From: Caulochytrium protostelioides
Taxonomy: Eukaryota; Chytridiomycota; Caulochytriomycetes; Caulochytriales; Caulochytriaceae
Direction: 5' to 3'
Assembly: GCA_003615045.1 (NCBI GenBank)
Contig: ML014125.1
Location: 124,001-188,000, forward strand
DNA length: 64,000 nucleotides
How positions within the stretch are numbered: position 1 is the first letter of the stretch; every line of letters starts with the position of its first letter. A model generated the notes under the pieces. The model was given only the letters and a program-made list of their open reading frames with translations. It did not search any database and was not told where the DNA came from. This document shows positions 5,501-46,067 of this stretch, piece by piece. A program made the translations under genes and the position numbers.

Positions 5501-8500
5501 CCGGCAGCACGCTCAGCCCAGGGCCGGGTGTCCACAGCGGCCTGTTGGTGCGCACGACGGCGACGGGCGACGCCACGTGGGTCGCGGGCCCCGATGGGTC
5601 GATCATGTGCTACCGCGTTCCGGGGACGCCGCTGGCGGGGCCGACGCTCTCGGACGCGGCGCTCCGCGCGGCGGCCGAGACGGGACTGGACGAAGCCGTG
5701 GACGTGACGGACCCGAACACGTATACGATCGAAGTGGCGGCGCTGCAGTCGCAGAAGGATCTGCAGCTGAACGAGTACCGCGAGAAGCGCAAAGCCATCG
5801 AGGAGGACATCGCGCGGCTGCGCCACGAGTTCCAGAGCCTCCAGGACGCCTATGCGTCGCGCGGCGCCAGCGGGCGCGCCGACCCGTTGTGGCGCGTTGA
5901 CGCGGGGCTCGAGCGCGATGTCGCCCAAGCCACGCAGCAGCGTATCCAAGCGATCCTGGACAGCAACGCCTACGAGCAGCGCAAGGCGGCGCTCAAGCCG
6001 CAGAAGTTCCGCGACGCGTTCCTCAACCGCGTTGCCGAGATGGCACCGGGCGTCGCCGGCTGCCTCACCGCGTTGACGGTCACGGGGTTCCGCGTGCTGA
6101 AACCGGATTTTCTGGGCAACGAGGAGGCCCGGGCCCTGTGCGAAGCCGCCGATGCCCAAGCGCGCGGCGAGCCGGGGACGTCGCTTCACGGGGGGTTGGA
6201 GGCGGTGGCGGGCGATCGTTCACCCGCAGCGACGGCGACGGCGACGGCGACGCCGGCGACGGCGACAACAACAGCGACGTCTGGTGCTGGCGGTGGAATG
6301 GTCGCTTCCGCCGCCACGACCCAGCCGCCGGCCGGGAGGACCCACGACAGCAAGACGGCGCCCTCGTCAACGGCGGTCGCAGTCACGGCCACGACGACGG
6401 CGTTCGGGGAACCGTTCAAGCTGCCCGATACGACAGGGATGACGAAGGGCGATGCGCGCAAGAAGATCCGGCAGACCTATCTCGCGTACTGGCAGCAGCT
6501 GATGCGGCACAAGCCGGACGAGGCGACCGAGAACCCGCAAGATCTCGCGCTGATCCAGCACGCAAAGCGCCACGTGGGCGACTACATCCTGAAGACTTCG
6601 GACGAGTATGGCGCCGCGGACGGCGAGAGCATGGAGGTCGAGAACGCGCAAAAGAAATGGATGCAGATCCCGCTGCTGCAGTACTCGATCCAGAAGCTCC
6701 AGCTCGCCCTGAACAACGAGCTGCGGCAGCTCCAAGCGATGCGCGAGGCGATGCTGCAGCGGCTCGAAGCGGCCGTCATCCAGTTCAACCAGCTCGGCGA
6801 TGCCCTCCGGCGCGAGATGCCGCAGCTGAGCGTTGCGGTGATGCCGCCGGCCGCCGAAATTTGCGGCAAGGGTGCTGCGGCGGACCTGGACCACCTCCGG
6901 ATGGCGCCTGCACAGGGCGCCCCCGGTCCCGCCGATGCGCGCTCCCCCGGGGCGGATCGCCCTCGGCGCATCCACAGCTGGATTCACCGGCGCAACCAGA
7001 TCATCGACGGAATCCTCAACGGCTTCACCCGGTTCGACCAGCGACTGTCGGACATTAATCTCGACAAGATCCATCTGGAGCGCGACCTCAAGTTCGCGCA
7101 TCTGCGCCTTATTCTGCTATACCAGGAGTGGCTGCTGCTCAAAGACTTTGATGCGTCCGACCAGAAGCTCTCGGCGAGCATCTCGGCGAAGCGGCAGGAG
7201 CGCGACGCGAACGACGCGAAGCTGCAGGCCTACCAGGCGCGCCTCCAGGACGGCAAAGCGACGCTTGCCACGCTCGCGGAAGCCGACCGCGCGCTCGAGG
7301 TCGAGCTCGCGCATCTGCTCGAGGAGGACCCTTCCAACTCAGGCGAGATTCTGACAAAGATCTACCGCAAGAACATAAAGCGCGAGCGCGCCCGCGGCCA
7401 TGCAGGCCACGGCGCCCACGACGGCGGCGCCGACGGCGCCGCGGGTGAGGGCCGTGGTGATGGCGTGGCGTCCACGTACGCCTCAAGCGATCCGAGCGAC
7501 AGCGACGACGACGACGACAGCGATGCGTCGAGCGTCGTGTCGGTCACGCCCGTGTCGGACGCGTGTCCGCCCGACTGCCCGCGCAAGCTCCATGCAGGCG
7601 TGCTGGCGCTGCGCCAGCGCCGCCTGGACCTGCGCGAGCGCGTCGAGATCGTCAACAAAGAAGCCGAGGCTGTGCGCAAGGAGTATGACGCGTTCGCCAA
7701 GAAGCAGCGCATCATCGAAGCGGCGCTACTCAACTTCCAGAAAGAGCTGCAGGCGCTGCAGCGCCAGAAGCAGCTGAAGCTGAACGAGCTGGACGTCGTC
7801 GTGCCGATCCGTCCGGACCAGGTCTGCGTGTTCCAAAGTACCGCGTGGCCCGACGATTTCTCACCGACTATCGTGTTCCCGGCCAAGAGCCTGACGGCGC
7901 TCCAGAACCGCATCGAGGCGATTGGCAAGGAGAAGCAGCAGGTGCGCCGACAGTACCTCGAGCTCCGCCAGAACCACGTGCGCTTAATCAGGGCCCGCAA
8001 GGAGAAAACAAGCCAGCTGCAGGCGCTCGAGAAGAAGGCGGTCGAGGTCCAGATGCTCAAGTTCGGGCATATCATCGATCTCGAGCAGATGGAGAACGCG
8101 GGGCCCGACAAGCAGGCGGACGAGCTGGCGGCTCATCTCGACGCCGCGTCGAAGGTCTTCTACGGCCAGATGGCGCAGCTCGACGCCGAGCTCGCCTTCG
8201 TTAAGCGCGAGCTGGCGCAGGCTCTTAAGGAGAACACGGACCTCACCGAAACGCTCGCGTCATCCCTCGTCACGAGCCGCTCCATGCGCGAGACCCTGCG
8301 CCGGCTGCCGGGGCCGCAGGTCGTGGAGCAGCCGGGGCCGCGGCCCGTCGAGAGCGCCGACCGCGACCACCTCGTCCAGACTATCGAGGCCCAGGCCCAG
8401 GAAATGGACGCGCTCCGCGCCGAGATCGAGACCCTCCTGCGCAAGCCGGGCAACGAGCACGTGCGCCTGCCGCACACGCGCGACATCAACGCCAAGGGCA

Positions 8501-9456
8501 TCGTTCGTCCCGCCGCCACCGCGGCGCCCGGATCGCTGCATGCGCACACCCACCCGCATGCGCATCCTGCCGACGGCCACGACGCGGCCGCCGGCGGCAT
8601 CGACGGCCATGCGAGCCCGACGGGCCGTGTCCACTTTGAAGCCTCGCCGGCGTCCTTCTCGGCTCACCCGCGGCAGCGACCCATGCCGCCGGTGGCCGCC
8701 GCCGAGCCCAGCCACCGCACGGCTGCTGACGCCGCCGACGCCGACGCCAGTCAAGCGCCGTCGCCCGCGCTCACCACGCCGGCGTCGGTGCTCGCGCCTT
8801 CCACCGCCACCGCCACCGCGTCGCGCCTCAGTCTCGGCGGGAGCCAGACCAGCTCGCGCGCGCGGCTCGCCGCCGCGGGACCCGTGAGCGCTGCCGGCCG
8901 CTCGGGCGCGGCGTCGGGCGCCGGCTCGGCAATCGCCAGCGGCCGCGGGACCCCGCGGACGGCGGGGTCGGCGGCCGCATCATCCCCCGCGTCAGCGACG
9001 GCGTCCCCGCGCGCCTCACAGGGCGGTCTGCGGTCCGCGGCGCATCTGCCGCCGATCCCTGCCGGCGCTGGTGCGCAGGATCCCCGTGACGCCAGTGCCG
9101 CTGGCGTCGACCACGAGGACGGCGAGGACGGTATCGATCACGAGGGCGAGGACGCCGCGTACGACAGGGCGCATACTGCGGATGAGACGGCGGATGCAGT
9201 AGGTTTGAGCACGCAGAGTGGCGGTGCCGAAGAAGAGTCAGCGGAGATCCCCCTTGAAGCGGCTCTGCCTGAGATGGTGCACGGCTCGGATCAAGAGCAA
9301 CACGTCCCGCTGGAAACGGATCACGAGCATGCCGAGCCCACCGAGCTTGTTGAGTTCACTGAGCCCACGGAGGAGATCGATGTTAGCGCCGATACCGGTG
9401 AAGAGGAACTCGAGTCGATTGAGCCGGTTGAGGTGGACGAGTCGCCGAGCCCCTAA
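2539..9456 (+). CDS. CFAP44: Cilia- and flagella-associated protein 44 (CFAP44/WDR52-like)
   Basis: Exons 2539..2907 and 3010..9456 (GTAAGT donor at 2908, TAG acceptor ending at 3009, phase 0) give about 2,271 residues, longer than the roughly 1,850 of animal CFAP44. After a low-complexity N-terminus, WD40-type repeats span about residues 190-700 (for example IKFWKMSS near 391, VRSWDLETI near 485). The C-terminal half is largely coiled coil. The region around residues 1710-1820 carries the family-typical LNELDVVV followed by VQMLKFGHIIDLEQME, which distinguishes CFAP44 from the related CFAP43. The tail from about 1870 is Ala/Ser-rich and ends in an acidic Glu-rich segment. In known organisms CFAP44 and CFAP43 form the tether/tether-head complex that links inner-arm dynein f (I1) heads to axonemal doublets, so this gene implies a motile flagellum. 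Lineage-specific inserts include an Ala-Thr run near 6220-6280 and an Asp run near 7505. Confidence 0.88.
2908..3009 (+). other. Spliceosomal intron of CFAP44, phase 0
   Basis: GTAAGT at 2908-2913 and CTAG ending at 3009, 102 nt. Without splicing the frame stops at 3007-3009. After splicing, 28 additional codons lead into the long second exon. Confidence 0.8.
6224..6280. repeat. Degenerate GCGACG hexamer run inside CFAP44
   Basis: Imperfect repeats of GCGACG/GCGACA encode an Ala-Thr linker between coiled-coil blocks of CFAP44. The reading frame is preserved, which fits a tolerated low-complexity insertion. Confidence 0.75.
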
Positions 9457-26145: not shown

Positions 26146-28108
26146 ATGAGCGGGCACGACGTCTCCGCCGACGCATCGCCCGCGCCGGCCGCCGTCGCGT
26201 CGCCCGCTGCGCCGCTCACGCCCTCCGAGTCGGAGCCCGGCGAATCGTCGGTGATGACCTGCGGATGGGCACGCGTCGCCGTGGGTCTGACGCTGCTGCT
26301 CATCACGGGGATCCCCTTCAGCGTCCACGTAAGTGACTTGATGCTTCCCGCTTGATCGCGCCAGTGACGATGGCATGGCCGCGGCATGACGCTCCGTGGA
26401 GCGGCCGGTATGAACACCAGTGTGGAGCGAATGTGAACGACTCACCTTTCTTACCCCGCTCACCCCCCGCCCGTGGCCCCTTAATGACGAGGTCTCATGG
26501 GATGATCGTGCGGATGTCATCGGTCATACCCGCCGCAACGATCGGGTGGCACAGTACTGGATTTACTGGCCATGGCTGGAATTCCATCCCGAGCGGTCGC
26601 AGCTCCTGTGGCTGGGGCCCTTCCAGGCGGGCGTCGTCGCCATGTGGGTGCACTACGCGCTCGCCTGCTTCACATCGCCCGGGTTCACGCCAGCGGACTA
26701 TGATCCCATCAAAACCCCCGGGCTCTTGATGGGCCCGCCCGCCGAGACGGTGCGCCGCTTGCCGCGGTACACGGCACCCGCGGCCTCGAGTCCGCCGCGC
26801 CAGCCGCGCCGCGGCGCCCGCCACGCGACACTGACGCTCGACCACGGCATATATCGGTATTGCCGCAAGTGCCAGCTGTACAAGCCGCCGCGGTCGCATC
26901 ACTGCTCCATCTGCCGGCGCTGCGTCCTCAAGATGGACCACCACTGTCCGTGGGTTGGCAACAACTGCGTCGGCCACGCCAATCAAGGCCACTTCGTTCG
27001 CTTCCTCGGGTCCATCCTCTACTGCACGCTGTCGTGTATGCTGCTCCTCGCCTTGCGCATGTACGATCTGTTCCGGTACCAGCAGGCGCTGGACGCCTGG
27101 CCGCGCACCATCTACTACACGGCGCCCATCACGACGGCCGAAGTCGTGTGCCTCGTGGTCGTGCTCGTGCTCCTCTTTATGCTGATGCTCAGCGTCGGTC
27201 TGCTCTTCCTGTGGCAGATCATGTTTGCCTGGAACAACACGACGACGATCGAGTCGCAGGAAAACAAGCAGATCGAAGCGCTGTGGACCCGCGGCAAGTG
27301 CGACGCCCACCCCGACGACTACCCGTACGATTTAGGCCCTTTCACCAACTTCCGCGCGCTGCTCGGGCCGTCGGTGCTGCTGTGGGCGTTCCCGCAACGC
27401 ATGCGCGGCGACGGTATCGCGTGGCCCATTGACGAGGACGCCCAGCAGCGGTTGTTGACGGATGACTGTGTCGTGGATACCGTCCCCGTCGACGCCGCCA
27501 CCGCGGCGGGGGAGGTGCCGGCCGCGCCAGCTCGCTTCGAGTGGCCGCCCAAGAGCTACCTGAACCACCGCAAAAACCAGGCCGGCCCGCGCCGTCGCGA
27601 AGTGACGGAGAAGCTGCGGCAGTCGGAAGGCCGGCAGGCCGCGCGCCGCGCCGCCGTCAGCGCTGGTCCCGCGCCCGCCGCGCCGGGGCTCGTGCGCCGC
27701 GGCAGCGAGGGCTACGTCGTGCGCGAGCTGACGCCGGAGGAGCGCGCGCGTATGCTTGCGGTCGCGGACGCCCACCTCGGCGACGGCGACGGCGATGACA
27801 ACGACGACGCGGCGCTCGCGATGCCGACGATGGAGACGGGTATGCCGCGGCCGCTCGTGCAGCTCGACCAGATCCCCGCGAGCGCTCGCCGCGCGCCGCC
27901 GTCGGACGCCGCGCGGTCCGTGACGTCGGGGCTCGACAGCGACTTCGATTCGGACATGTCGACCTCGGCGTCGGACATCGATTCCGACAGCGAGGAGACG
28001 GCCCCCGCGTCCGCGTATGAGGCCGCCGGGGCGTCCGAGCCGGCCGTGATGCCGGTGGCGCCGGCCGCCGCGGGCCGCCGAGGCGCAGCCCTCCGCCAGC
28101 GTAAATAG
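26146..28108 (+). CDS. DHHC protein S-acyltransferase, Pfa4/ZDHHC6-like, two exons
   Basis: Exon 26146..26328 joins exon 26555..28108 across a 226-nt intron (GTAAGT donor, CACAG acceptor, phase 0), giving 578 residues. Membrane helices flank the catalytic loop: [20 protein letters not shown] (about 42-61), [32 protein letters not shown] and [21 protein letters not shown]. The cysteine-rich domain reads [36 protein letters not shown] (cited here in outline), with the DHHC active site near residue 188. Downstream TTIE and the PYDLG-type segment followed by [17 protein letters not shown] match the Pfa4/ZDHHC6 group, which palmitoylates proteins at the endoplasmic reticulum. The roughly 220-residue cytosolic tail is long, Ala-rich and acidic (DSDFDSDMS) and appears lineage-specific. 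Confidence 0.9.
26329..26554 (+). other. Spliceosomal intron of the DHHC gene, phase 0
   Basis: GTAAGT at 26329-26334 and ACAG ending at 26554. Splicing fuses the first membrane helix directly to [10 protein letters not shown], consistent with the family. Confidence 0.75.
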
Positions 28109-29706: not shown

Positions 29707-32307
29707 ATGGCCTCTTCGCCGTCTCAACAGGTCCGCGCGGTCTTTTCCCAATATGACACCGACCACGATGGATTCTGGGTTTACGAGAACTTTGAGCGGT
29801 TTCTCGTCGCGCTCCGCAAAGACCATCTGAGTCCCGAGCGCAAGCTGCAGTCATGGCGGTTCCTCGATGTCGCCCGCCGCAACAAGATCGACATGGCGGA
29901 GTTTGAGCGGGGCATGGCCATCCTGTGGGACCAGGACTTTGTGATTCCGATGCCGGCCCCGATTGCGCCGCTCGCGTCCCATCCGGGGCACGGCGGTCAC
30001 GACAAGCCGCTGGCGCAGAGCCTCGAGCTGATTTCGGCGAACCGGACGACGATCCGCGGTAAGAAGCTCAACGTCGTCGTGAAGCCCGAGATGACGGACC
30101 CGATGGCGGTCTGGCTCGTCCATGAAAAGGTCGGCGAGGGATCATACGGCGAGATCTACCGAGCAACGCGCCGCGTGCCGCTCGCGACCAGTGCCGAGGA
30201 GAACACGGCGGCTCTCAAAGTCATCGACCTCGAGCGGACGTCCGACGACCTCGACGATCTGCTGACCGAAGTTGATTTCCAAGCCAAGTGCCTTTCCGCA
30301 TATCTGGCGCGGTTCTACGGGGCCTGGATGTGGGAGCGCAAGCTCTATATCGCGATGGAGTTCCTCGGCGGCGGGTCAGCCGAACAGCTGCTGCGCACGT
30401 GCAAGCTCAACGAGGATATCTGCTCCTTCATCCTGCGCGAGGTGGCGCAGGGCCTGAGTTACATGCATACCAACGGCAAGATCCATCGCGACATCAAGGC
30501 GGCCAACATTCTGTTCAGTAGCACGGGCGGCGTCAAGCTCGCCGACTTTGGCGTCGCGGCCCAGCTTACGGCCGACCGCCAGGTCCGCAACACCTTTGTC
30601 GGAACGCCGCTCTTTGTCGCTCCAGAGATCGTGCTCAGTCAGACCTACGACACCGCCGTTGATGTCTGGAGTTACGGCGTCATGGCGATCGAGCTGGCGA
30701 TGGGCGTCGCGCCGCGCGCCAACCAGCACCCCATGGAGGTGCTGTACCAGATCCCGACGTCCCCTTCGCCCCAGCTCGGGCCCGAGTTTTCGGCGGAGTT
30801 TCGCGACCTCGTGGGCCAGTGCTTGAGCAAGATTCCCGAGCAGCGGCCCAAAATGAGCGAGCTGCTCAAGTCGCATCCCTTCCTGCAGCGGCCCGTCGAG
30901 CGGCCGCAGATCTTGGCTTTGCTGCAGCACGCGCGGCAGCTCGAGCCGCGCGCCGCCTCGGCGCCCAAGCATGACATCAACGCATGGTGGCACAATTACG
31001 AGGCCATGCTGGCGCCCATGCTGCCGCCGCACGGCCCGGCCGCGCCAGCTCCGCGGCCCTCGTACAACCACTCGGCCGCCGCCGCCAAGGCCATCCACCC
31101 GCAGCTCGCCCACCTCAACGTCTCCCAGACCATCAAGAAGCGCAACACCTCCAACATGACCGGCGTCAGCATCGAGGGCGTCTGGATCCAGAGCCGTGAG
31201 CACCTGGACGCCGTCATGGCCCTCCGGCCGGGCACCGCAGGGCACGGCACCGCACGCCGCAAGCCGACGCCCAGCGCTGCCGCCATGATCGGCGCCGAGG
31301 TCGCTGTGCCGGCCCCGGCGTCGACGCTGCCCACGGGCGCGTCGACCGCGGCCGCGCCCGCCATGCCACCCGCGTCCCCGGCAGGCAGCCGCCTCAGCGC
31401 CGCCGGTCTCGCCGCGCCGGCCGTGGGGGGGACCGGCGGCTCGTACGGCCCCGCGAGCGGCCGCGTGCTCGGCAGCGTCGGGCGCCACGGCGGCGCGGCC
31501 CTCACGCCCTCGTTGCTGCGCTCCGCCGGCGTCGCGATCCGCGCCGCGCCCATCCCGGAGGCCCAGAGTCAGGCCTCGCTCAACGACGGGTCGGCGCCCA
31601 CGCCGCCGTCGCGCTCGGGGTCGGCGTCGTCGCTGACGCCGGCCTCCGGCGCCGCGGGCCGCAAGTCGCTCGCCGCGCCGGGTTCGTCGTTGCTCGCAGG
31701 GCCGGCGGTCCCGGCGCCCGGCGCGATCGCGAACTCCGCCGCCCGCCTCAGCGCGGCGAACCACGCCAACGCGCCGAGCCCTGGCTCGCAGCCGCGGGTT
31801 CCGCGTGTGTCGACGACGTCGCTGGCGATGTCGGCGACGGCGAGCGCGGTGCTGTCACCGTCGGCGTCGCCGTCGGCGTCGCCGACCGGCCTCGCGAAGC
31901 CGCGGCCGCCGGGCCTCGTCATGGGCGGCGCGCCGCCTCCCGCGATCCCCTCGCTCAAGCCGCAGCCTGTCGTGCGCCTCGTTGAGCCGCCGTCGCCGCT
32001 GGACCAGGCGATGGACGACCTCAACGAAGCGCAGCGCGAGTTCGATACCGTCAAGCTGCTCGAGGAAGACCAGCTGATGCTGATGGCTTCACGGGCGATC
32101 AGTCGCCGCAGCGCGCATGCCGTTACCCTGGGCAGCACGCCCCTGGCCGCGGCGCACGCGGCCGCCGGGGCGTCCGCGCACGGGCACCACTTAGGACCCA
32201 ACGGGCACACCATCCGGGCCGTCAGCATCCCGGCCGCCGTTGCGGGCCTCAGCGCTGCCAACTTTGGCCCGCCGGGCATGCTTCCGCTGAGCATCCCCCA
32301 TGCCACT

Positions 32308-32341
<34 letters not shown>

Positions 32342-33699
32342 CCTCATCGAGCGGCACGCTCTCCAAGCCGTTCCCGGGCAAGCTGCCCTTATCGGGTGCT
32401 CGTGCCGCTGCCCATGACGCGCATCTGCCATCACCGTCCGTCTCGGCGGCGGCGACGACGACGACGAAGCCGATGGCGGCGAGTAGCGCGGCGTTGGCAT
32501 TGACCCCGCGCCGCCTGAAAGCGCACGACGTTGGCGCGGACTTTCAAAAAAAAGTGGCACGCGATGTGCTCGAGACGGCGCGGCCGCTGGGTCCGTGGCT
32601 GTGTGCCCTTGAGTCGTTCTGGCGGCAGAACGCGCAGTTCGTGGCGCAGCTGCATACCTTGTTGGGCGAAGTGGCGCGGCCGCTCGTGTGCAACCAGCGG
32701 TCCTCGGGAACGCCGCTCACGTTTAACGCCGCGATGCTGTTCCCTGAGGACCGCGTCCGGGTCATGTTCCAGGGCCCCACGCTGTTGCACAATGTGTTCC
32801 GTGACGTCGGGCAGAGTCTCGAGGACGTGCTCGCGGATGGCGACCCGGCGACGATCGACCTGGACGTCGCGAAGCTGCTCGAAGAGCGACTCGTCTCGAT
32901 CCGCGCCGGCTATCTGGGCTGGATCAACGAGTTGACCGCCGGGCTGTACGAGTCGATACGCGCGATCCGCGACGTGCCCCGGTTCTGCGAGCTGCTCAAT
33001 GCCTCGACCACGCTGCTGCCGCGCGGCAGCCAGCTGTCCTACTACGACTACATCATGGCGCCCGCGCGACACGTCCTTGCGCTGTCGGGCCGGCTCGACG
33101 ACCTCGCAGCCCAGATCCCGGGACGTGCAGGCGCCGTCACCTGGGCCAACATGGCCGCGCACCTGCGCGAGCTGGCGGCGCTCGTCTCGGACGCCGTCCT
33201 CAACGCCGAAGCCCTGCTTACGCTCTCGCTGTCGATGGAAGGCGTGCCTCTCGCCGCGCTGCTGAAGCACGGGCAGCAGTGCGAGCTCTCGGGCCTCATG
33301 GAGCGCGTCCGCGTGCTGCCGGGCGACAAGCTGAAAGAGCACAAGCCGTTCCAGTTCGTGATGCTTAAGGATGCGCTGATCATTGCCAAGATCGTGAACC
33401 GCGAGGCCGTCGACGACGTCGTCGGGCTGAGCGACCTGCTGGACTCGCGCCGCGCCGCGCCGCGCCGCGCGCCCCGCATCGCGTTCGCATACAAGGAGCT
33501 ATGGGTGCGCGAGTTCCTCGATGCTTCGAGCCAGATCGACCCGCCGACAACGCTGCCGGTGCTGCGCCTCGATGTCGCCGTCCGCAAGGGCAGCAGCGCG
33601 ACGTATCTGTGCAAGAACCACGCGGCCCGCGATGTCTGGGTCGCCGCGTTCACGCCGCAGAGCGACCAGCTCGCCTTCTTGAAGCATCTCCGCTCCTGA
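29707..33699 (+). CDS. EF-hand / STE20-type (GCK) kinase / RhoGEF DH-PH multidomain protein
   Basis: One uninterrupted frame of 1,330 residues from ATG at 29707 (GCCGCCATGG). An EF-hand-like pair spans about 14-72, with loop DTDHDGFWVYEN. A complete GCK/STE20-type kinase domain spans about 136-393: GEGSYG loop (143-148), Lys171 in AALK, HRDIKAAN (Asp262), DFG (280-282), GTPLFVAPE activation segment, and final Arg in PEQRPKMSELL. A disordered Ala/Ser/Pro linker of about 550 residues follows. The C-terminal 380 residues fit a Dbl-homology (DH) domain (about 950-1175) and an adjacent PH domain (about 1190-1320). The DH evidence includes FWRQNAQFVAQLHTLL, IRAGYLGWINELTAGLYESI, PRFCELLN and the CR3-like SYYDYIMAPARHVLALSGRLDDL. 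The PH evidence includes FQFVMLKDALIIAK and the terminal-helix Trp in ARDVWVAAF. Kinase residues look active. A Rho-family GTPase target is inferred. I know of no standard family combining a GCK kinase with DH-PH on one chain. Confidence 0.85.
32307..32340. repeat. GCG run encoding polyalanine in the kinase-GEF linker
   Basis: About 11 GCG codons in a row within the disordered linker between kinase and DH domain. Confidence 0.85.
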
Positions 33700-36238: not shown

Positions 36239-37300
36239 CGGGTGTATCGGGTGTATCCCATGTATCGGATGCTTTGGGGTTCGGTCAAAGTCGGCGACCA
36301 GCGGTCTGAGCGGCGCCGCAAAACAAAGCCTGGGCCGCCAAGAAGCTTTGGCGAGAGGGCAATAGGCAACCATGTATGGCACACGCTGCACGATACCTGA
36401 TGTGCAGTGCTCACGTGCAGCTCAATGAACCTAGGACGGTGGGTATGGTGTGCTGGCCCTGTCCCGCTCGATGGATCCATTTGGCTTCCCGCGCCGCCCC
36501 TTCTTGGCTCGAGTCACGAGTCTGTTGGCGACGTCACCTCCGGTGGCGTGGCTCAGCGGCGGCCGAGCCACTCTGGCAAGCGGCGGCGCAGTGACTGCGC
36601 CCCCGTCTCGGTCGCCCAACCTCTCCTGTCCGCGGCGTCCCCTCGCGTGGAACTGAGCAGTCCACGCGGCGATGCGCTGCGGTGCGATGCCGGCGTCATT
36701 GCCGATCTTCCGAGAAATTCAAGAGCCGCTCGGGAAAAGGAAAGAAGCATGCCGTGTCGCGTGGTGGCCGCAGCCCTGCTGGCGCTCTCGTGATCGACGT
36801 GCCTTCGCCGGAACGCGTCGACCCCGTCGTTCACGGCGACCGACGCGTCGCATCGCACACTCTTGCGCTATCACGCGGAGCGATGTCGATGGCTGCCGAG
36901 TGACGCGTGGAAGGTCGTGCGGAGTTTGCCGCCGCCGCCGCCCCCTTTCCCCATGGACCGCCCCGCGTGTCGACACCCCGCGCTCCTGCGTACGCGTACA
37001 TGTCGAGGAAGGCGGCCAACGGTGCGCCGAAAGCCGTCCCGTGCGACGCGTGGTGCTGCGCTGGCTCGCGGCGTGGCCACCGGTGGCGCGGAGGCCATCC
37101 CCCGGCATCGGGGTCACGCACGCCGCTGCGCGGCACATCTCGCACGCCGATGCCGCGGGTCGCACGGATGACTGGTTATGATCGCCATCCAAGGACCACG
37201 ACGATTTCAAGAACGAGAACCCCGCGTTCATGACGACGTTGGAGAGACGAGAATACTCCGGAAGCATACCTCGGCCTTCGTGTGATAATCGTCCACCGTC
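36239..37300. other. Divergent promoter region between the mitochondrial-protein and calpain genes
   Basis: About 1.1 kb without a convincing gene. A 9-nt repeat of the type ATCGGGTGT (four degenerate copies, about 36238-36273) abuts the minus-strand start codon. No TATA box stands out. Confidence 0.45.
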
Positions 37301-37402
37301 ATGCCCCCCGTCAATCAACATCCAGCAAGCCCGCTTCCATCACCCGATCTCAAGGCAGCACCCACTTTGGATGGGATGAGTGCGCGCACAGTCGCGCCAT
37401 GA
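37301..37402 (+). promoter_or_regulatory. Upstream ORF whose stop overlaps the calpain start (ATGA)
   Basis: The first ATG in the leader opens a 33-codon frame (MPPVNQHPASPLPSPDLKAA and onward). Its TGA at 37400-37402 overlaps the calpain ATG at 37399-37401 in the sequence ATGA. Such an arrangement could couple or limit translation of the main frame. No in-frame ATG exists upstream for the main frame, so scanning ribosomes should meet this ORF first if the transcript extends this far. Confidence 0.45.
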
Positions 37403-39999
37403 CGGCGACACGACGCTTCGGCGACCAGGACTACTCGGCACTCAAGCAGCGCGCGTTGCGCCAGCGGCAGCTCTTCTACGATCCGACCTTCACGCCGTAT
37501 CCGTCCAAAACCCAACGTACCGCGCGCGACGGCCACCGACTCTCGGTGCCCCTGGCCACGCTTGAGATCGAGCGCAGCGCGCATGCGGCGCCCGCTGCCG
37601 AGCCCGCGCATGGTGCGCGGTGGTCGATGCCGGCGGCCGCCGCGCCCGCCGCGGTCCCGCCGCCCGCCGCCGCGCCCAACATAGACGCCGTCGTCTGGCG
37701 CCCGTGCCGTGAGATCGCGCTGGCGCCGCGCCTAGTGAGCGACGGCCTCCCGCGCCAGCGCGACGGCGCGACCGCGTGGATCGTCGCGGCCGCCGCCGTG
37801 CTGACCGTCTTCCCGGACCTGCTGGACGCTGTCGTGCCCGACCGCGCCGCCCAGGACTGGCCTGATGACGGCGGCTGCCGGCGGCTGCCCACGGGCCAGA
37901 CGGCGACGCCCTTCCATCCGGGCATTTTCCGGTTCCGCTTCTGGCGGCTCGGCCGGCGCTGCGAGGTGGTCGTCGACAGCGCGCTGCCGTGCCGCGCGGC
38001 CGACGGCGCGCTGCTCTATGCCCGCGGCGTCCGCCGTGCCGGCGCCGTGCTCTGGCCGCTGCTCGAGAAGGCCTACGCCAAGCTCGTCGGTGGCTACGCT
38101 GTGCTGCAGCAGTCGACATCGACCCGCTTCGCGGACGTCCTCGCCGACCTCTCGGGCCGCTGGCCCGAGACCGTCGCGGTCCACTGGGGCCCTGACGCCG
38201 CCGCGCCTCCCCGCTATGGACGGCATCGCCGCCACGAGCCGCGCGATTCCGACGAGGCAAGCACCCTGTCACACGATGCGCAGCAGCAGGGGCTGTCGCG
38301 TCTGCTCGCCGAGCAGCGGAAGGCCGCGTGGATAGCGGCGGTGCTCAGGATGCCGCTGTGGTCAACGGCCCCGAGCGGAACCCCGAAGACCGCCGGCACG
38401 CCGTCCCTGCAGCGCCAAGTCTTTCCGATTCGATGGGCGCGGATCCTGCCTGCCACCGCGCCCGACCATGCCGCGACGGCCATCGTGTGCCTCCGAGACC
38501 CGTGGGGTAAGCACTCGTGGCTGCCGCGCGAGGCCAAGACGCCGTGGGCCGCCGCGGCGTATGCGGCGGCGCCCGTGGCCGTGCAGCACCTGATGGGCGA
38601 CGATGTCATTGGCCCGAACGTCATCATGCTGTGGACCCATTTCGTCAGCATATTTGCCACGTGGATCGTGGCGCCGCCCGCGGTCTCGAGCGCGCCGCCC
38701 GCGTGGTGGTCGCGCTGCTTGCCGCCCCTTCGGTGTGCTGCACCCACGACCACCACGTGCGAAGGATACTGGCCTGGCAACGCGCTCCTCGCGTCGGCCA
38801 GCAGCCCCCCACCGCCGGTGGCATCGCCGACCGCGTCGCCGGCCCCGTTGCCAGTCGCGATCGACCCGCAGACGCCCCAGTACCTGCTGCGCATCGCGCA
38901 GCCGGACGACGTGCTTCTCCACCTCACCCAGATCGGGTCCCCGCTGCGCGACGGACTCGAACGCGGCATGGTCCCGATGGGCCTCGTGGTGGTGCGCGTC
39001 GAGCGGAACCGGCGGCACCGGCTGACGGCGGCGCAGCTCGCGGCTTTCGATGTGCAGCCCGGCGGCATCGCCTGCGCGGGCCGGCGCGCGGGCCGGCGCT
39101 CAGGCCCGGCGGCGAGCTCGTGGCAGACGCGCGTCGGCCACGTGGCGCCCTGCGCCGCCCGCGACATCGACGCCCGCTTCGTCCTCGCGCCGGGCACGTA
39201 CGTCGTGCTCCCGACCGTCGCGTCGCCGTGCCACGTCGGCGGGTTCCGTCTCGGCGTCGCGTCCATGCGCGCCGCCGAGACGCGGCGCGCTGTGCTGCGG
39301 CCGCTGACGCGTGGCCTGCCGGCGCCGTGCTGGTACCGCGCATTCCCGATGGGCGTGCTGCGCCTCGCGGTGCTGCAGGGCACGACGGCGGCGGCGGCCT
39401 CCACGCCGATGGCGGCGATGGCGATGGCGGCCGCAGGATACCACCCGCCGTCCCGCTCAAGCGTGGCGACCAGCGGCGACGACGCCGCGGTCACGGTGCA
39501 TGTGGCGCTCGTGGACGCGGGTCTGCCGCCCGTGGCGCGGCGGTGGGCGTCGACCGGGCCGATCCCCGTCACGCCGACGGCGCATGCCCCCTCCCGCTCG
39601 TCCTCGGCCGGCTCGACGCCGTCCGTCCCCGATGCCGGTATAACCACGGCGACCATGACGGCGACGGAAAGCCCGGAAGCCTATGCGCATGCGACGGCGC
39701 GCGCTGATGCCAACGCAAGCATAAGCGCGGCAAATGCGTTTGTGTGGCTCGTCCGCGATCCGCGCAAAGCGGTCCTGCGGCTGCGGGTGGTGCGGGCGGC
39801 CGCGGGCCACGGGCCGGCGCGCGTCGTCGGCGAAGCGCACGTGGCCTGTGAGACGTATATGACGATGGCGAGGCGCGAGCGCGACTGGGAGATCGTTGTG
39901 CCCGTCGCGTCAGCGCGCGACGCGGAGGCCGTGCCCTTGTTGACGGCGTTGACGTTGCGAATCCGGTATGATGGCTCGTTGGCCGCGCTGACCGAGTAG
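37399..39999 (+). CDS. Calpain-family protein lacking the catalytic triad (pseudocalpain)
   Basis: 866 residues from ATG at 37399. The N-terminus matches classical calpains (FGDQDYSALKQRAL, QLFYDPTF; then VVWRPCREIALAPRLVSDG). The segment that normally reads GDCWLL is GATAWIV, so the catalytic Cys is Ala126. The His motif (GHAY) is not present where expected, and NPWG is DPWG, so the Asn is Asp367. The calpain fold is otherwise retained: LYARGVRRAGAVLWPLLEKAYAKLVGGY, MLWTHFVSIFATWIV, a domain-III-like sandwich (PQYLLRIAQPDDVLLHLTQ to RFVLAPGTYVVLPTVAS) at about 490-640, and a C-terminal C2-like segment (FVWLVRDPRKAVLRLRVVRA to LTLRIRYDG). The layout resembles calpain-5/6, and calpain-6 is likewise inactive. 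A non-proteolytic, possibly cytoskeletal, role is inferred. It ends in an AT-rich region shared with the convergent USP gene. Confidence 0.82.
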   Translation: MTATRRFGDQDYSALKQRALRQRQLFYDPTFTPYPSKTQRTARDGHRLSVPLATLEIERSAHAAPAAEPAHGARWSMPAAAAPAAVPPPAAAPNIDAVVWRPCREIALAPRLVSDGLPRQRDGATAWIVAAAAVLTVFPDLLDAVVPDRAAQDWPDDGGCRRLPTGQTATPFHPGIFRFRFWRLGRRCEVVVDSALPCRAADGALLYARGVRRAGAVLWPLLEKAYAKLVGGYAVLQQSTSTRFADVLADLSGRWPETVAVHWGPDAAAPPRYGRHRRHEPRDSDEASTLSHDAQQQGLSRLLAEQRKAAWIAAVLRMPLWSTAPSGTPKTAGTPSLQRQVFPIRWARILPATAPDHAATAIVCLRDPWGKHSWLPREAKTPWAAAAYAAAPVAVQHLMGDDVIGPNVIMLWTHFVSIFATWIVAPPAVSSAPPAWWSRCLPPLRCAAPTTTTCEGYWPGNALLASASSPPPPVASPTASPAPLPVAIDPQTPQYLLRIAQPDDVLLHLTQIGSPLRDGLERGMVPMGLVVVRVERNRRHRLTAAQLAAFDVQPGGIACAGRRAGRRSGPAASSWQTRVGHVAPCAARDIDARFVLAPGTYVVLPTVASPCHVGGFRLGVASMRAAETRRAVLRPLTRGLPAPCWYRAFPMGVLRLAVLQGTTAAAASTPMAAMAMAAAGYHPPSRSSVATSGDDAAVTVHVALVDAGLPPVARRWASTGPIPVTPTAHAPSRSSSAGSTPSVPDAGITTATMTATESPEAYAHATARADANASISAANAFVWLVRDPRKAVLRLRVVRAAAGHGPARVVGEAHVACETYMTMARRERDWEIVVPVASARDAEAVPLLTALTLRIRYDGSLAALTE

Positions 40000-40339: not shown

Positions 40340-43300
40340 TCACAGCGCGGCCCGATCAGCGACCATCGTCTCGGCACCAGCTAGAGCCGGCGCGGCGGCC
40401 GGCGTGGCGATCACCGCTGTTGCGGGATCCGCCGTCGCGGCAGACGCAGCCGAGACGGCGTCGGCGTCTGCGGCGTCCGCTGGCGCGGCGGGGACGGTCA
40501 GGGGCGCCGTCACGGGCGCCGGCGCTCCCGGCTCGCGGCGCACGTAGAACAGCACGTACGCGTAGTGGGTGGCGACGTCGGCAGCGTCGACGCGGGTGAC
40601 GAGGTTATCGTCGAAGTGGTACCACTTGCCGTCTCGCCACGCAAAGCTCGTGTAATGTCCGTTCTCCATGGAGCCCATGTGGTTGCAGACGGAGACGAGG
40701 TCGAAGACCACGTGGTCGGGGCCATACGTCGGCGCGTCGGAGGCGTCGGCGGCGGCCGAGAGCAGCTGGCCGTTCTGGAAGACGAGCACGTGGGGAATCG
40801 CGACGGTATGGTCGACCTTGCACATGTCACCCGTGCTCATGTCAAGCTCGAAGCGCTTGAGCTGAACAATGAGCACGCGCTGCGGAAGCGCATATAATGC
40901 GAGCTGCTTGGTGGCCTCGCCCTTCGTCTTGCACTTCGGACATAGCCAGTCGTCGATCGTTTCCTTGGCGAGGTGGCCGCCCAGGCACGCCTCGAAGGCG
41001 ATCGGGCGGCTCACCACGGCCTGGCGGTGCTTGAAGAGGATCACGTCCTCGAGGGTCAGCGGATCGATGTTCAGCGGCAGGCACGCCTCCAGCGCTGGCA
41101 GGTTGAGGCTCGTTTGTGCGGAGTCCGCGGTCCACAGCAGGGTGGCCATCACGAGCGCGCCCGGGCGCACATACTGGACCGTCGCGTCCTGGGTCTTGAA
41201 GGGCCACTCGAGCTGGATCCCGCGGCGCCAGACAGCCTGGAGCATCGCCTCGGTCTCGGGTAGGCGGCCGACATAGACCTGCGCCTTGAGCAGCGCGCTC
41301 AGCATCATGTAGTAGAAGGTGAAGAAGGAGCAGTGCGACCGCTCGAGCGCGACGGCCTGCGGCCATCCGATCGGCTGTAGAACCTCTTCCATCTCCATCT
41401 CCACCTCCGCCGCGGCCTCAGCATCGGCAGGCGACGCATCCGCCGCGGCACTGGCGAGGCGCGTGCGCGTGCCGGGCACAGCGTTCTCGGCGTCGTGGTC
41501 TCCGTTGTCGTTGTCATCGTCGCCTTCGTCGTCGTCGTCGCCGTCGTCATCGTTCGGCGCCAGCGGCGGCGGCACCGCCGGATCACTCGCGCCGTCTTCC
41601 GCCTCCACCTCGCCTGCCTCACGGACCGGTGATGGCGCCGCTGGCATGGCGGACGCAGCGATGGGCCGCTGCGTCACCAGCGAGTGATGCAGCAGGACGA
41701 TGGGCTTGGTGTCCGAGACTAGGTAAACATACAGGCACGTCGCCAGGTCTTCTTCGATGGCGCCGAGCGTGTCGTCGTCGTCGAGACGCTGGGTGACGCG
41801 GCCATTCACAATGATGAAGGGCAGCAGGTTGGACGCGCTCTTGCGAAGCTTGATCGCGAGCGCCTCGCGGAGCTGCCCGATGGTCGTCGCGGGGCCCATC
41901 GCGACGGGCAAGCGGTAGCGCTTGTGATCCGTCGTGACGAGGGAGATCGAGAACGGCGTGAGGTGCGCCGGCTGCGCGTCGAGCTCGTCGCGCGCGGCCG
42001 CGACGACTTCTTCTTCGACGTCGTCGTCATCGTGACGCCGCTTCGGGATCTCGAGCGAGAGGCACTGGTACGCGTCGAACTTCTTCTTGGTCCAGCCGCA
42101 GCTGCCACAGCGCAGCGTGCTCTTGTACTGGCCCTGAATGAGGTCGTACACGTGGCTGTCGTCGCGCGCGCGGTCGGCGGCAGCAAAGCGCTGGGCGACC
42201 TCCGCGTCGGTCTGCGAGTCGTCAAAATCAGGCATCTCGACCGCCGGCTGCTTGACGTGGACGCGGTTCACGGACTCGTGGAGCTCGTCCAAGCACAGAA
42301 TCAGAAACTCCTGAGCGTCGTGCTGGATCATGGGCGACAGGTGGAACAAGCGCTCGACGGTGCCCTGGAAGCGGCGCGGCAGGAACGGCCGCGACCGCGA
42401 CAGCGTCTGGCACATGATGTGGTTGAACGCTGCCGCGAACTTGCCGCCGGACCGCGAGGCCTTGTTGGCATCCGACACGTCCGGGACAAACTCGTCGGTG
42501 CCGAAGTAGGCCACGAGCGGCTCAAGCGAGCACAGCGACTGCAGCACCGAGATCATGTAGCAGTCGAATCCGTTGTTCGCGAGCCCAATCACGGCGCGCT
42601 TCGCGCGCAAATCCAGTGACGTGACCGCGGCGCCGAGGCTGGTGACGCCCGGCGCGGCCGCAGCCGCGGCGGTTTCGGACGCCGACGCCGTCGCTTCTTC
42701 TGACGACGACGCCGCCGCGGGCGCCGAGGACGCCGCCGTCGTGGCGGACGCCGTCATCGCCGTGGTCGTCGCGGCCGTCCGCGCGGCGATCGCAGCCGGC
42801 ATGACGCCCTTGAGCACATGGAACGCCTCGTCGTCCTGGTCGTCATCGTCCTCCAAGGATTCATACTCGGCTTCCGAGGGCGACGCCATGTCCGAAGCGT
42901 CCGAGGCGTCGGAGCCGGAGAGCTCGGAGCCGGCGTCCGAAGGCGCCTCGATTGCGAAGCTCGAGTCTTCCGCGTCCTCGCTATGCGACGACGTCGTGGT
43001 CATGTCTTCGGCGACGGCGACGTCCGAGACGTCGCTGATCCCCAGAGCCGGCGCGTCAACGGGCAAGCACGGCGGCGACGCCAGCAGCCGCGGGTCCGAG
43101 GGCGCGAACTCGATCGGCTTGCCAAGCGACCGCCAGGGCGCGTTGGAGGTCTTCACGAGCAGCAGCTCGACGATGCCCGGCTTGATGGAGATGCGTGAGT
43201 GGTGCTTGTCGATCGGCCCCGGCAAGGGGTCCCAGCCGAGCGCGAACGGCGGGGTTGCTTTGGGGTTCGGCGACGGCGGCGCCGCGTACACGAGCTGCAC

Positions 43301-44743
43301 GCTGTGGTCCGCGAGGTCCAGGTGCAGCGCGACCTCGTCGATCCCGCTCACGTAGACAGTCACGATAACGCGCGAGTCCGTCTGCACAAAGTCGAACGGC
43401 GGCTCGAACGTCGCCGTCGCGGCTGTGTCTGCGGCGGCCACCATTCCCGTCGTCGGCACGGAAGGCGAGGCCATCGCGCCGGCGTCCTTGTGGTGGGCAG
43501 CAAAGGACTCGGAGGACATATCCATCTTGCTGTCGCGCTGCTCGAGCGGTGACCCGGCTTTCGACCCGGGTGTCGCCGGCGCCCCCGCGCCGTCGGCGGC
43601 CTCCGACGCCGCGGCAGCCGTCTGGCCCGCGGCGGTGGCCGCGGCGCGGGCCCGGTTAGCGGCGTTCATGCAGGCGACGAGTCGCGCCGTCAGCTTCGCG
43701 CGCCGCGGATCGTCCGGGAACGCTTCTTTCACAAAGTAGGCAATGACTTGCATCCGCGCGGCGGGCGCCAGATCGACGGCGCCGGCCACGATCGCGGCGA
43801 TCACGTCGTCAGACGGCTCGTCATCCCCGCCGGCGTCGTCCCGGCCCGATGCGGCGTCCGCTGCTGGAACGGCGGCTGCCACGGCGGTCGCCGTCGCCGA
43901 GCCGCGGCGCAGGGCGGATTTCAAAGGCCGTGAGCCGCCGTCGATGTGCATCAGGGACGCGTCGCTGGCGTCGCTGCTGCCGTCGGAAGCGTTGCCACCG
44001 GCCACGACGATCCGCGACTTTTTGCGCTGCAGCGCCGACGCCGACGCCGACGCCGTCGAGGCCTTGAGCGCCGCGGCGGCGGCGTGCGCCGTGTGCGATC
44101 CCGCCGTGCCGGGCGCGCCGCGGCGCCCGCGCTGCACGCGGCTCGGGCTGTCCTGGCTGCGGAACGAGCGCACCGAGTCTCGCCGCGGGTTGAACGTGAC
44201 GCCGTTGGCGCGGCCGGCGCGCGCCGTCGCCGAAGCCGCTGTGCCGGCGTCGCGGTCGCTATCGCTGTCGCTGTCGCGCGCGCTGGTATGGCCGCTGGCG
44301 CTCGCCGTGTCGGCCGAGGACCCGTTCGCATCGGTCATGGCGACCGTCGGGCCGCACGGGGCAGCGGCGGCGGCGGCCATCGACGAGGCGACCGCCGACC
44401 GCGACGCCGTCGACGGCGACGCCGATCGCGAATCGGGGTCGATGTCGACCATGTCCATGCCGGTGTCCATGCCCATGTCGGCGGCGGCGGCGGCGGACAG
44501 CGGCATCGGCGCGGCGAGCGCCGAGGACGGCGCCTGCAGGGCCGAGCGCTGCGGCGAGGTGGCGGCGGAGCTGACGGCGGAGCTGCCGAGCGGGCTCACG
44601 GATACGGGTGTCGAGGTGGTGCTGCTGATACTGCTGGTATTCCCGGTGGCGGCGGTGGCGGTGGCGGCGGCCGGGTCGGCGGTGCCGGCGGTGGCGGCGA
44701 GGCGCTGTCGTGCCTTGCGCTTGCGTCCTGGTCGCTTGGCCAT
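40340..44743 (-). CDS. Ubiquitin-specific protease with CS domain, USP19-like
   Basis: 1,467 residues from ATG at 44743, chosen because MAKRPGRKRKARQR is a natural basic, NLS-like N-terminus; the frame stays open 400 codons further but looks noncoding. After a disordered N-terminus, about residues 445-545 form a CS/p23-type domain (FDFVQTDSRVIVTVYVSGID, VELLLVKTSNAPWRSLGKP). The USP domain starts near 718. Its Cys box is GLANNGFDCYMISVLQSL with Cys728. HDAQEFLILCLDEL follows, then the zinc pairs CGSC and CPKC, and the His box GHYTSFAW with His1363, then YHFDDN and AYVLFYVRRE. A ubiquitin-like insertion (FSISLVTTDHKRYRLPVAM to LATCLYVYLVSD) and acidic Asp-rich segments interrupt the catalytic fold. 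CS plus USP with a UBL insert is the layout of USP19; no C-terminal membrane helix is seen, so a cytosolic form is inferred. All catalytic residues are present. Confidence 0.88.
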   Translation of the reverse strand: MAKRPGRKRKARQRLAATAGTADPAAATATAATGNTSSISSTTSTPVSVSPLGSSAVSSAATSPQRSALQAPSSALAAPMPLSAAAAADMGMDTGMDMVDIDPDSRSASPSTASRSAVASSMAAAAAAPCGPTVAMTDANGSSADTASASGHTSARDSDSDSDRDAGTAASATARAGRANGVTFNPRRDSVRSFRSQDSPSRVQRGRRGAPGTAGSHTAHAAAAALKASTASASASALQRKKSRIVVAGGNASDGSSDASDASLMHIDGGSRPLKSALRRGSATATAVAAAVPAADAASGRDDAGGDDEPSDDVIAAIVAGAVDLAPAARMQVIAYFVKEAFPDDPRRAKLTARLVACMNAANRARAAATAAGQTAAAASEAADGAGAPATPGSKAGSPLEQRDSKMDMSSESFAAHHKDAGAMASPSVPTTGMVAAADTAATATFEPPFDFVQTDSRVIVTVYVSGIDEVALHLDLADHSVQLVYAAPPSPNPKATPPFALGWDPLPGPIDKHHSRISIKPGIVELLLVKTSNAPWRSLGKPIEFAPSDPRLLASPPCLPVDAPALGISDVSDVAVAEDMTTTSSHSEDAEDSSFAIEAPSDAGSELSGSDASDASDMASPSEAEYESLEDDDDQDDEAFHVLKGVMPAAIAARTAATTTAMTASATTAASSAPAAASSSEEATASASETAAAAAAPGVTSLGAAVTSLDLRAKRAVIGLANNGFDCYMISVLQSLCSLEPLVAYFGTDEFVPDVSDANKASRSGGKFAAAFNHIMCQTLSRSRPFLPRRFQGTVERLFHLSPMIQHDAQEFLILCLDELHESVNRVHVKQPAVEMPDFDDSQTDAEVAQRFAAADRARDDSHVYDLIQGQYKSTLRCGSCGWTKKKFDAYQCLSLEIPKRRHDDDDVEEEVVAAARDELDAQPAHLTPFSISLVTTDHKRYRLPVAMGPATTIGQLREALAIKLRKSASNLLPFIIVNGRVTQRLDDDDTLGAIEEDLATCLYVYLVSDTKPIVLLHHSLVTQRPIAASAMPAAPSPVREAGEVEAEDGASDPAVPPPLAPNDDDGDDDDEGDDDNDNGDHDAENAVPGTRTRLASAAADASPADAEAAAEVEMEMEEVLQPIGWPQAVALERSHCSFFTFYYMMLSALLKAQVYVGRLPETEAMLQAVWRRGIQLEWPFKTQDATVQYVRPGALVMATLLWTADSAQTSLNLPALEACLPLNIDPLTLEDVILFKHRQAVVSRPIAFEACLGGHLAKETIDDWLCPKCKTKGEATKQLALYALPQRVLIVQLKRFELDMSTGDMCKVDHTVAIPHVLVFQNGQLLSAAADASDAPTYGPDHVVFDLVSVCNHMGSMENGHYTSFAWRDGKWYHFDDNLVTRVDAADVATHYAYVLFYVRREPGAPAPVTAPLTVPAAPADAADADAVSAASAATADPATAVIATPAAAPALAGAETMVADRAAL

Positions 44744-45108
44744 CGCGGCAGCCGTTGGCTGAACGGAAGGGGCGGAGGTCGGGAGGGTCGCACCGACGAC
44801 ACGAAGCGGAGCTGACGACGGGTGAGAAGCGGAGCGGTGCGACCAGCCTGTCGCACGCCGCGGGAGAGGCCGAGTCGGGGCCACGGTGTCCGGCGCGAGG
44901 AAAGCGTCGTGGGCAGCCGTGGATGCGTTGCGTGGCGAAAAGCGCTCCGGAGCAGCAATGCGAGCCGCTGGGCAGCCTGGGGTGATGCGGCGAGACGGCG
45001 AGAACGAGAAGCCCGGCGGCGAGATGGCCGTGATCCGAGCGAGATGGCGGGTGGCCGGTGGTGCGTGGCGAGGCCGTATCGCCACGACCGTATGAAGAGC
45101 GAGACGAC

Positions 45109-45148
<40 letters not shown>

Positions 45149-46067
45149 GCAGCGCCCAGAAAGAGGGAAAGGCCGGCGACGCCGCGGCGGCCGGTCAAGG
45201 GTGTCGCGGATGGGTCTCGAGGTGGCGGTCCCCGCTCGAGCCAGCGGGGACCGTGCGCGGGCGGCCGCGGCGGGACGCGGCGTGGTCTCGCCGAGCTGGG
45301 CGGCGAAGGGGTGCGCCGAAACGGCCATTGGCCTGGGCGGCGCCGGCGTCATGACATGCGGACGCCGCCGCCATGGGCCGACGGCGCCTGCCGATCCTCG
45401 GTGCCCACGGACACCGGCGCGGCGGCGGCGGACACCGGCGCGGCGGCGCTCGCGGCGGCGCTCGCGGCGGCGGCGGCGGCGAGGAGGCGTTCCGTGGCCA
45501 GGCCTCGCCGGATCAGGAAGCGCCTCGTCGGCGACCGAACCGGAGGAAGGCCCGTCGCAGGATGCTGGTCCGCGGCCACGACGATGCGCTCCAGGGCGGC
45601 GCGCGGGTCGACGGCGACTACGGCCGACCGATGCGCACGACGGCGCTCGGCGAGGGTCCCGCCCGACGGGGTTGGCGCAGATCCCTGCTGCCGCGCCGCG
45701 TGCGCGTGGGGTTGAGGGGTTCGATCCGTTCCGCAGACGTTGTCGTTTGAATGTCTTTGTGATTTCTTTGTGATGTTCGTCGATCGCAACGGTCATGGCC
45801 GCCATCATGGTCGGTCGTGAGCCGCCAGGCCACGGGGCGAGGCAGCGTTTGAGATGGCGATGTCTCCGCCACGAGAAGCGTCTCATGCTCCAGAGGATGC
45901 GGGGGCGCAGGTATACGATGCATCCACAGACACGTCGCCCCACATCGAAGCTCGTACCCCCCGTTCTGAAGCGCCCTCCCGATCACGCAACGAGCGTGCA
46001 TCGCTGCGAATGTTATCCACATCAGGTTTACATGATCGGCGACGCCACGTCAGACATCGTGCGGCGT
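44744..46067. other. Spacer upstream of the USP gene and downstream of DNAI2
   Basis: About 1.3 kb without a convincing gene. Both strands have long GC-driven frames. It contains (CGG)11(CAG)3 at 45111-45152 and GCG-rich degenerate repeats around 45415-45480. It should carry the USP promoter and leader. Confidence 0.5.
45111..45152. repeat. (CGG)11(CAG)3 microsatellite
   Basis: Eleven CGG units followed by three CAG units on the plus strand. It lies about 370 nt upstream of the minus-strand USP start codon, in its likely leader or promoter. Confidence 0.9.

Follow-up and report, generated by a model that had tools for sequence, protein, structure and literature searches.

Kinase and DH-PH modules lie within one chain in Trio, kalirin and obscurin, as they do in the protein described here from the chytrid Caulochytrium protostelioides. 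Those proteins have a kinase of another family, a different domain order and extra domains. The GCKIII kinases STK24, STK25 and STK26 resemble our protein in the kinase domain, for which they are the nearest in the PDB, but an animal GCKIII protein (P0142) carries a C-terminal PDCD10_N domain (PF20929, E 1.1e-6) where ours has DH-PH, and ours adds EF-hand-like sequence before the kinase. In Dictyostelium, a kinase of the STE group that carries a RhoGEF domain was recorded in 2006 and called unique (PMC1420674, in the part available); it is the same pairing in one protein, likened here by that description only. In Ustilago, the Cdc42 GEF Don1 and the Ste20-like germinal centre kinase Don3 are both required for septation (PMC3098242, available sections), and the accessible part of a review states that activation of Cdc42 signalling by Don1 does not depend on Don3, and that the link between Don3 and Cdc42 is incompletely resolved (PMC6386918). 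A GCK and a Cdc42 GEF thus serve the same septation step there as separate proteins, whereas here a GCK-type kinase and a GEF module share one chain. Because Don1 and Don3 serve the same septation, a shared GCK/Cdc42-GEF pathway is plausible.

The window, that is, the whole stretch of 64,000 nucleotides that was analysed, contains on its plus strand a coding frame of 1,330 codons plus stop (29707..33699), and genome comparisons refer to the 20.9 Mb assembly of 337 contigs. The frame opens with the ATG at 29707 (context gccgccATGg), closes with the stop at 33697-33699 and encodes 1,330 residues, uninterrupted as the earlier note had described it and with no intron needed. Its start matches the starts of relatives in the alignment. 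Behind the kinase is a WWxxY motif (aa 427-431, 30985..30999) that occurs in seven of eight relatives and is missing from P0003. It is followed by a second conserved motif, SAAAAKAIHPQLAHLNVSQTIKKRN (aa 456-480, 31072..31146), recognized in alignments with relatives. A long linker rich in Ala, Pro and Ser then continues in frame (31147..32526) and includes a run of 11 alanines (32308-32340); the family aligns poorly here.

The kinase domain (aa 138-389, 30118..30873) is complete and of GCK type (Pfam Pkinase, E 6.6e-56), with the catalytic residues K171, E188, D262 of HRD and D280 of DFG all present, and its best PDB relatives are STK25, STK24 and MST4 (best E 2.1e-71). This bears out the GCK-family assignment proposed earlier. 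In a tree of 38 hand-chosen rows (27 database proteins, the window protein and 10 of the genome's 37 other kinase matches), the domain forms one clade with eight chytrid proteins and the environmental fragment P0185, with support of 100/100 and a long stem (0.7), and this clade excludes STK24/25/26 and the genome's own GCKIII-like gene (L011, on C141). A wider GCKIII-like group that comprises animal STK24/25/26, L011 and others holds the clade with a modest 91/88, the exact sister not being settled. Kinase domains of the relatives are 53-65% identical to that of the window (BLASTP). The kinase is consequently GCKIII-related. The label of effector-type kinase does not fit it, since a Pfam scan of the window protein revealed no CRIB/PBD, and without CRIB the protein is not a classical Rho effector of the PAK type. 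The same scan revealed no PDCD10_N, a domain for which L011 gives a weak match in its tail (E 0.0038, 17.3 bits against a cut-off of 19.8). Because L011 exists as a separate GCKIII-like gene in the same genome, the kinase of the fusion counts as an additional paralogue and not as a replacement. Mo25 is a partner of GCKIII kinases, and one Mo25 gene is present in the genome. Other kinases of the genome include one with a SARAH domain, as in MST1/2 (L012, on C5), and two kinases judged by eye to be PAK-like (L017 and L018, on C198 and C158), which are close relatives of each other and are paired in the tree at 100/96.

The N-terminal region contains an EF-hand-like pair (aa 9-70, 29731..29916) that exceeds chance to a moderate degree. 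Pfam matches on the whole protein were weak, with PF13405 (E 0.0013) and PF13499 (E 0.0017) both under cut-off. When the first 130 residues were scanned alone, PF13405 rose barely above its cut-off (E 4.6e-6, 26.4 versus 25 bits) and PF13499 stayed under. The region aligns with six of the eight relatives; the P0003 model begins after loop 1, and P0127 is without the N-terminus. A structural model of the EF-kinase part has a helix-loop-helix twice, at a mean pLDDT of 63.4 that is too weak for contacts. Loop 1 (aa 17-28, 29755..29790) retains D1, D3, D5 and G6 and has Asn at position 12, a position occupied by Asn in three and Asp in three of the six relatives having the loop. Loop 2 (DVARRNKIDMAE) is degenerate and lacks ligands at positions 3 and 5, so that the ligands 1, 3 and 5 and an acidic residue 12 of a calcium-binding pair are not found in both loops of the sequence. 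The pair announced earlier therefore stands as an aligned, EF-hand-like region that is likely to be a structural module. Calcium sensing by it appears doubtful given the degenerate second loop, and the calcium input once suggested is weakly supported.

The C-terminus was assigned by family comparison and structure prediction. Profile searches, which the earlier note had recommended together with structure prediction, found the kinase and the weak EF-hand signal described above, and returned no RhoGEF (PF00621) or PH match at E <= 10, either with the whole protein or with the C-terminus alone. A PF00621 search of the genome found 13 RhoGEF loci, a lower bound, and the window gene was not among them. 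Searched alone, the C-terminus had no match at E <= 0.01 among 7,990 scored candidates of the protein database and no other match within its own genome at E <= 1. Because it found no relative by itself, the chytrid intermediates were needed and the DH would otherwise be missed. With a family HMM, the DH (Dbl homology) helical domain (aa 960-1176, 32584..33234) was recognized at E 3e-39, and BLASTP of the C-terminus against P0002 one on one gave 25% identity over 316 residues. The structure model places the DH helices between model residues 3 and 217 and yields DH matches in the PDB. A PH domain follows (aa 1192-1329, 33280..33693), predicted as a beta sandwich plus helix (strands at 233-342, helix at 346-355) with low confidence in the last residues; the best VIA matches cover model residues 1-366. 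The predicted structure is thus a DH helical fold and then a PH domain, as had been claimed, and both the kinase and the DH-PH exceed chance.

Profile scores speak against an ordinary DH at this position. With an HMM of the 13 ordinary DH domains of the genome, the window C-terminus scored like a shuffle (1.6 bits, E 9.2), and 12 of 1,000 shuffled sequences scored higher. The same HMM matched the C-termini of all seven chytrid proteins at 2.1e-11 or better. In the reverse test, the chytrid HMM matched 13 of the 13 ordinary domains at E 0.0058 or better, and hhalign, set between the family profile and the ordinary DH profile, gave a probability of 99.1% (local) and 99.5% (global).

The combination of kinase and RhoGEF is not a one-off. 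One protein holds both in at least eight chytrid species of seven genera and four orders, each predicted separately: P0122 (Rhizophlyctis rosea), P0125 (Spizellomyces), P0002 and P0123 (Synchytrium), P0003, P0126, P0127 and P0128. The sources name them only as STK24/25 or hypothetical protein. Pkinase and RhoGEF occurred together in two of the best 120 of 325 matches of one protein search (7,987 scored candidates) and in eight of the best 120 of 5,790 matches of another (7,988 scored candidates). These searches are lossy, because the first missed six of the eight relatives. The window protein has both the domain order and the kinase clade that define the family, and it is a divergent member of a family that it shares with chytrids. 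Like it, the relatives have a kinase and then a RhoGEF domain, with an EF-hand-like start in 6/8, WWxxY in 7/8 and an alignable DH-PH in 7/8. Unlike it, they keep the CR1 glutamate and seven of the eight exceed the RhoGEF profile cut-off. The environmental protein P0185 (519 aa) joins the family clade by its kinase and has WWxxY, with no DH in the available piece. The kinase of P0128 (Geranomyces) lacks a stretch present in the other relatives, possibly a gene-model error.

The divergence reaches the residues that contact the GTPase. The catalytic Glu of CR1, which we take to be E1047 of Tiam1, is found in all 13 ordinary DH domains of the genome and in all eight relatives (six by pattern, P0003 and P0127 by eye in the alignment), and is Asn975 in the window protein (AAC, 32629..32631). 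A computational study of Tiam1 and Rac1 reports, in the part available, that E1047 hydrogen-bonds switch 1 of Rac1 (PMC7884829). The CR3 position is Lys or Arg in 13/13 ordinary domains, Gln in the 7/7 relatives that reach it, and Ala1125 in the window protein (GCG, 33079..33081). MAFFT and hhalign alignments to ordinary DH domains concur on both positions, and the losses are read from alignment of a single window sequence. A single read error does not explain Asn975, because AAC is at least two bases from both Glu codons. The register is less certain at the third catalytic position, the Asn of alpha6: N1166 does not vary within the family and lies at ordinary DH spacing without gaps (P0002 and P0122), but MAFFT and hhalign favour another register. 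Taken in order, ordinary DH, chytrid family DH and window DH look as if features of exchange had been lost step by step while the fold stayed in place. The DH of the relatives, conserved though without the CR3 Lys/Arg, could have a working but different active site, and a DH without the CR1 Glu might rely on other contacts for exchange. The description of this protein as an exchange factor is nevertheless doubtful in C. protostelioides, with CR1 Glu replaced by Asn and CR3 Lys/Arg by Ala.

The reading that we favour, with little better than even confidence, is that the gene, as a divergent member of the family found in chytrids, encodes a kinase docked to Rho by an impaired GEF, or pseudo-GEF. 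Its DH-PH would bind membrane, a GTPase of Rac/Cdc42 type, or both; the genome has Rac- and Cdc42-like genes (L040 and L041, assigned by eye on the basis of the effector loop). Docking would bring the kinase to places where Rho is active and perhaps unleash it; there it may phosphorylate putative substrates in the cytoskeleton or in septation. The relatives retain the CR1 Glu, and their module is probably still able to exchange nucleotide, with an active site that departs from the standard one. In the window protein most of this activity has probably gone, and the module would act in docking. A wider proposal, which we advance tentatively and somewhat short of even confidence, is that a fungal lineage joined a GCKIII-type kinase to a Rho module, and that here a pseudo-GEF reads the GTPase state instead of setting it.

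In line with the coupling that the earlier note proposed, the same gene could encode an active RhoGEF coupled to its own kinase, in which for example an autophosphorylated linker or DH-PH opens and calcium adds an input. The predicted DH-PH fold, the Ser/Thr of the linker, and the relatives, with their CR1 Glu and seven of eight scores above the RhoGEF cut-off, agree with this. We hold it to be unlikely, however, in view of the replaced CR1 and CR3 residues of the window protein, the ordinary DH profiles that no longer match it, and EF loops of which the second is degenerate and the first lacks Glu at position 12. If instead the DH-PH had become an internal regulator only, one that folds onto the kinase and has ceased to meet GTPases, the two conserved motifs after the kinase and the two altered GTPase-contacting positions would find a place; the CR1 Glu retained by the relatives is difficult to account for if no GTPase is involved, and this explanation seems improbable to us. 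Finally, two adjacent genes or a chance open frame in GC-rich DNA may have been taken for one protein. GC content is 68-71% in the stretch of the gene (window mean 68%), long frames are common at such values, reverse-strand frames (462 aa, 303 aa and others) overlap the gene, and conservation is poor over most of the linker. A scan of the linker for promoters and terminators returned nothing, with models of bacterial type that are uninformative for a fungus. Kinase and DH nonetheless share one predicted protein in eight relatives of seven genera, and the frame, which contains no stop or frame shift, also takes in the conserved linker motifs. This last explanation is accordingly hardly credible.

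Kinase-RhoGEF chains as such are already known. No description of the order EF-GCK-DH-PH and its degenerate DH was found in the open-access literature searched, in agreement with the earlier view that this is not a described standard architecture, and the available portions of PMC4102429, PMC8146680 and PMC6767298 do not describe it. Kinase and GEF module in one molecule make the GCK-Cdc42 link directly testable. The stepwise series, from an ordinary DH to one without the CR3 base and then to one without both the Glu and the base, helps to ask what a DH does after exchange is lost. If the proposal of a pseudo-GEF that reads GTPase state is true, an exchange factor would here have been converted by nature to a sensor, with the intermediate state (chytrids) and the end state (C. 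protostelioides) both preserved.

The surroundings of the gene include a plus-strand frame of 2,120 aa (3094-9456) that combines WD40/EML-like propellers with a match to the CFAP43 coiled coil and is probably flagellar. Because of this match and a Radial_spoke match in the genome (E 3.7e-133), the organism is taken to be flagellate and zoosporic. A DHHC palmitoyltransferase (26420-28108, plus strand, E 6.1e-34) lies upstream of the kinase-DH-PH gene. Beyond the gene are frames for a calpain-family protease (37282-39999, plus strand) and a ubiquitin carboxyl-terminal hydrolase of 1,867 aa (40340-45943, minus strand).
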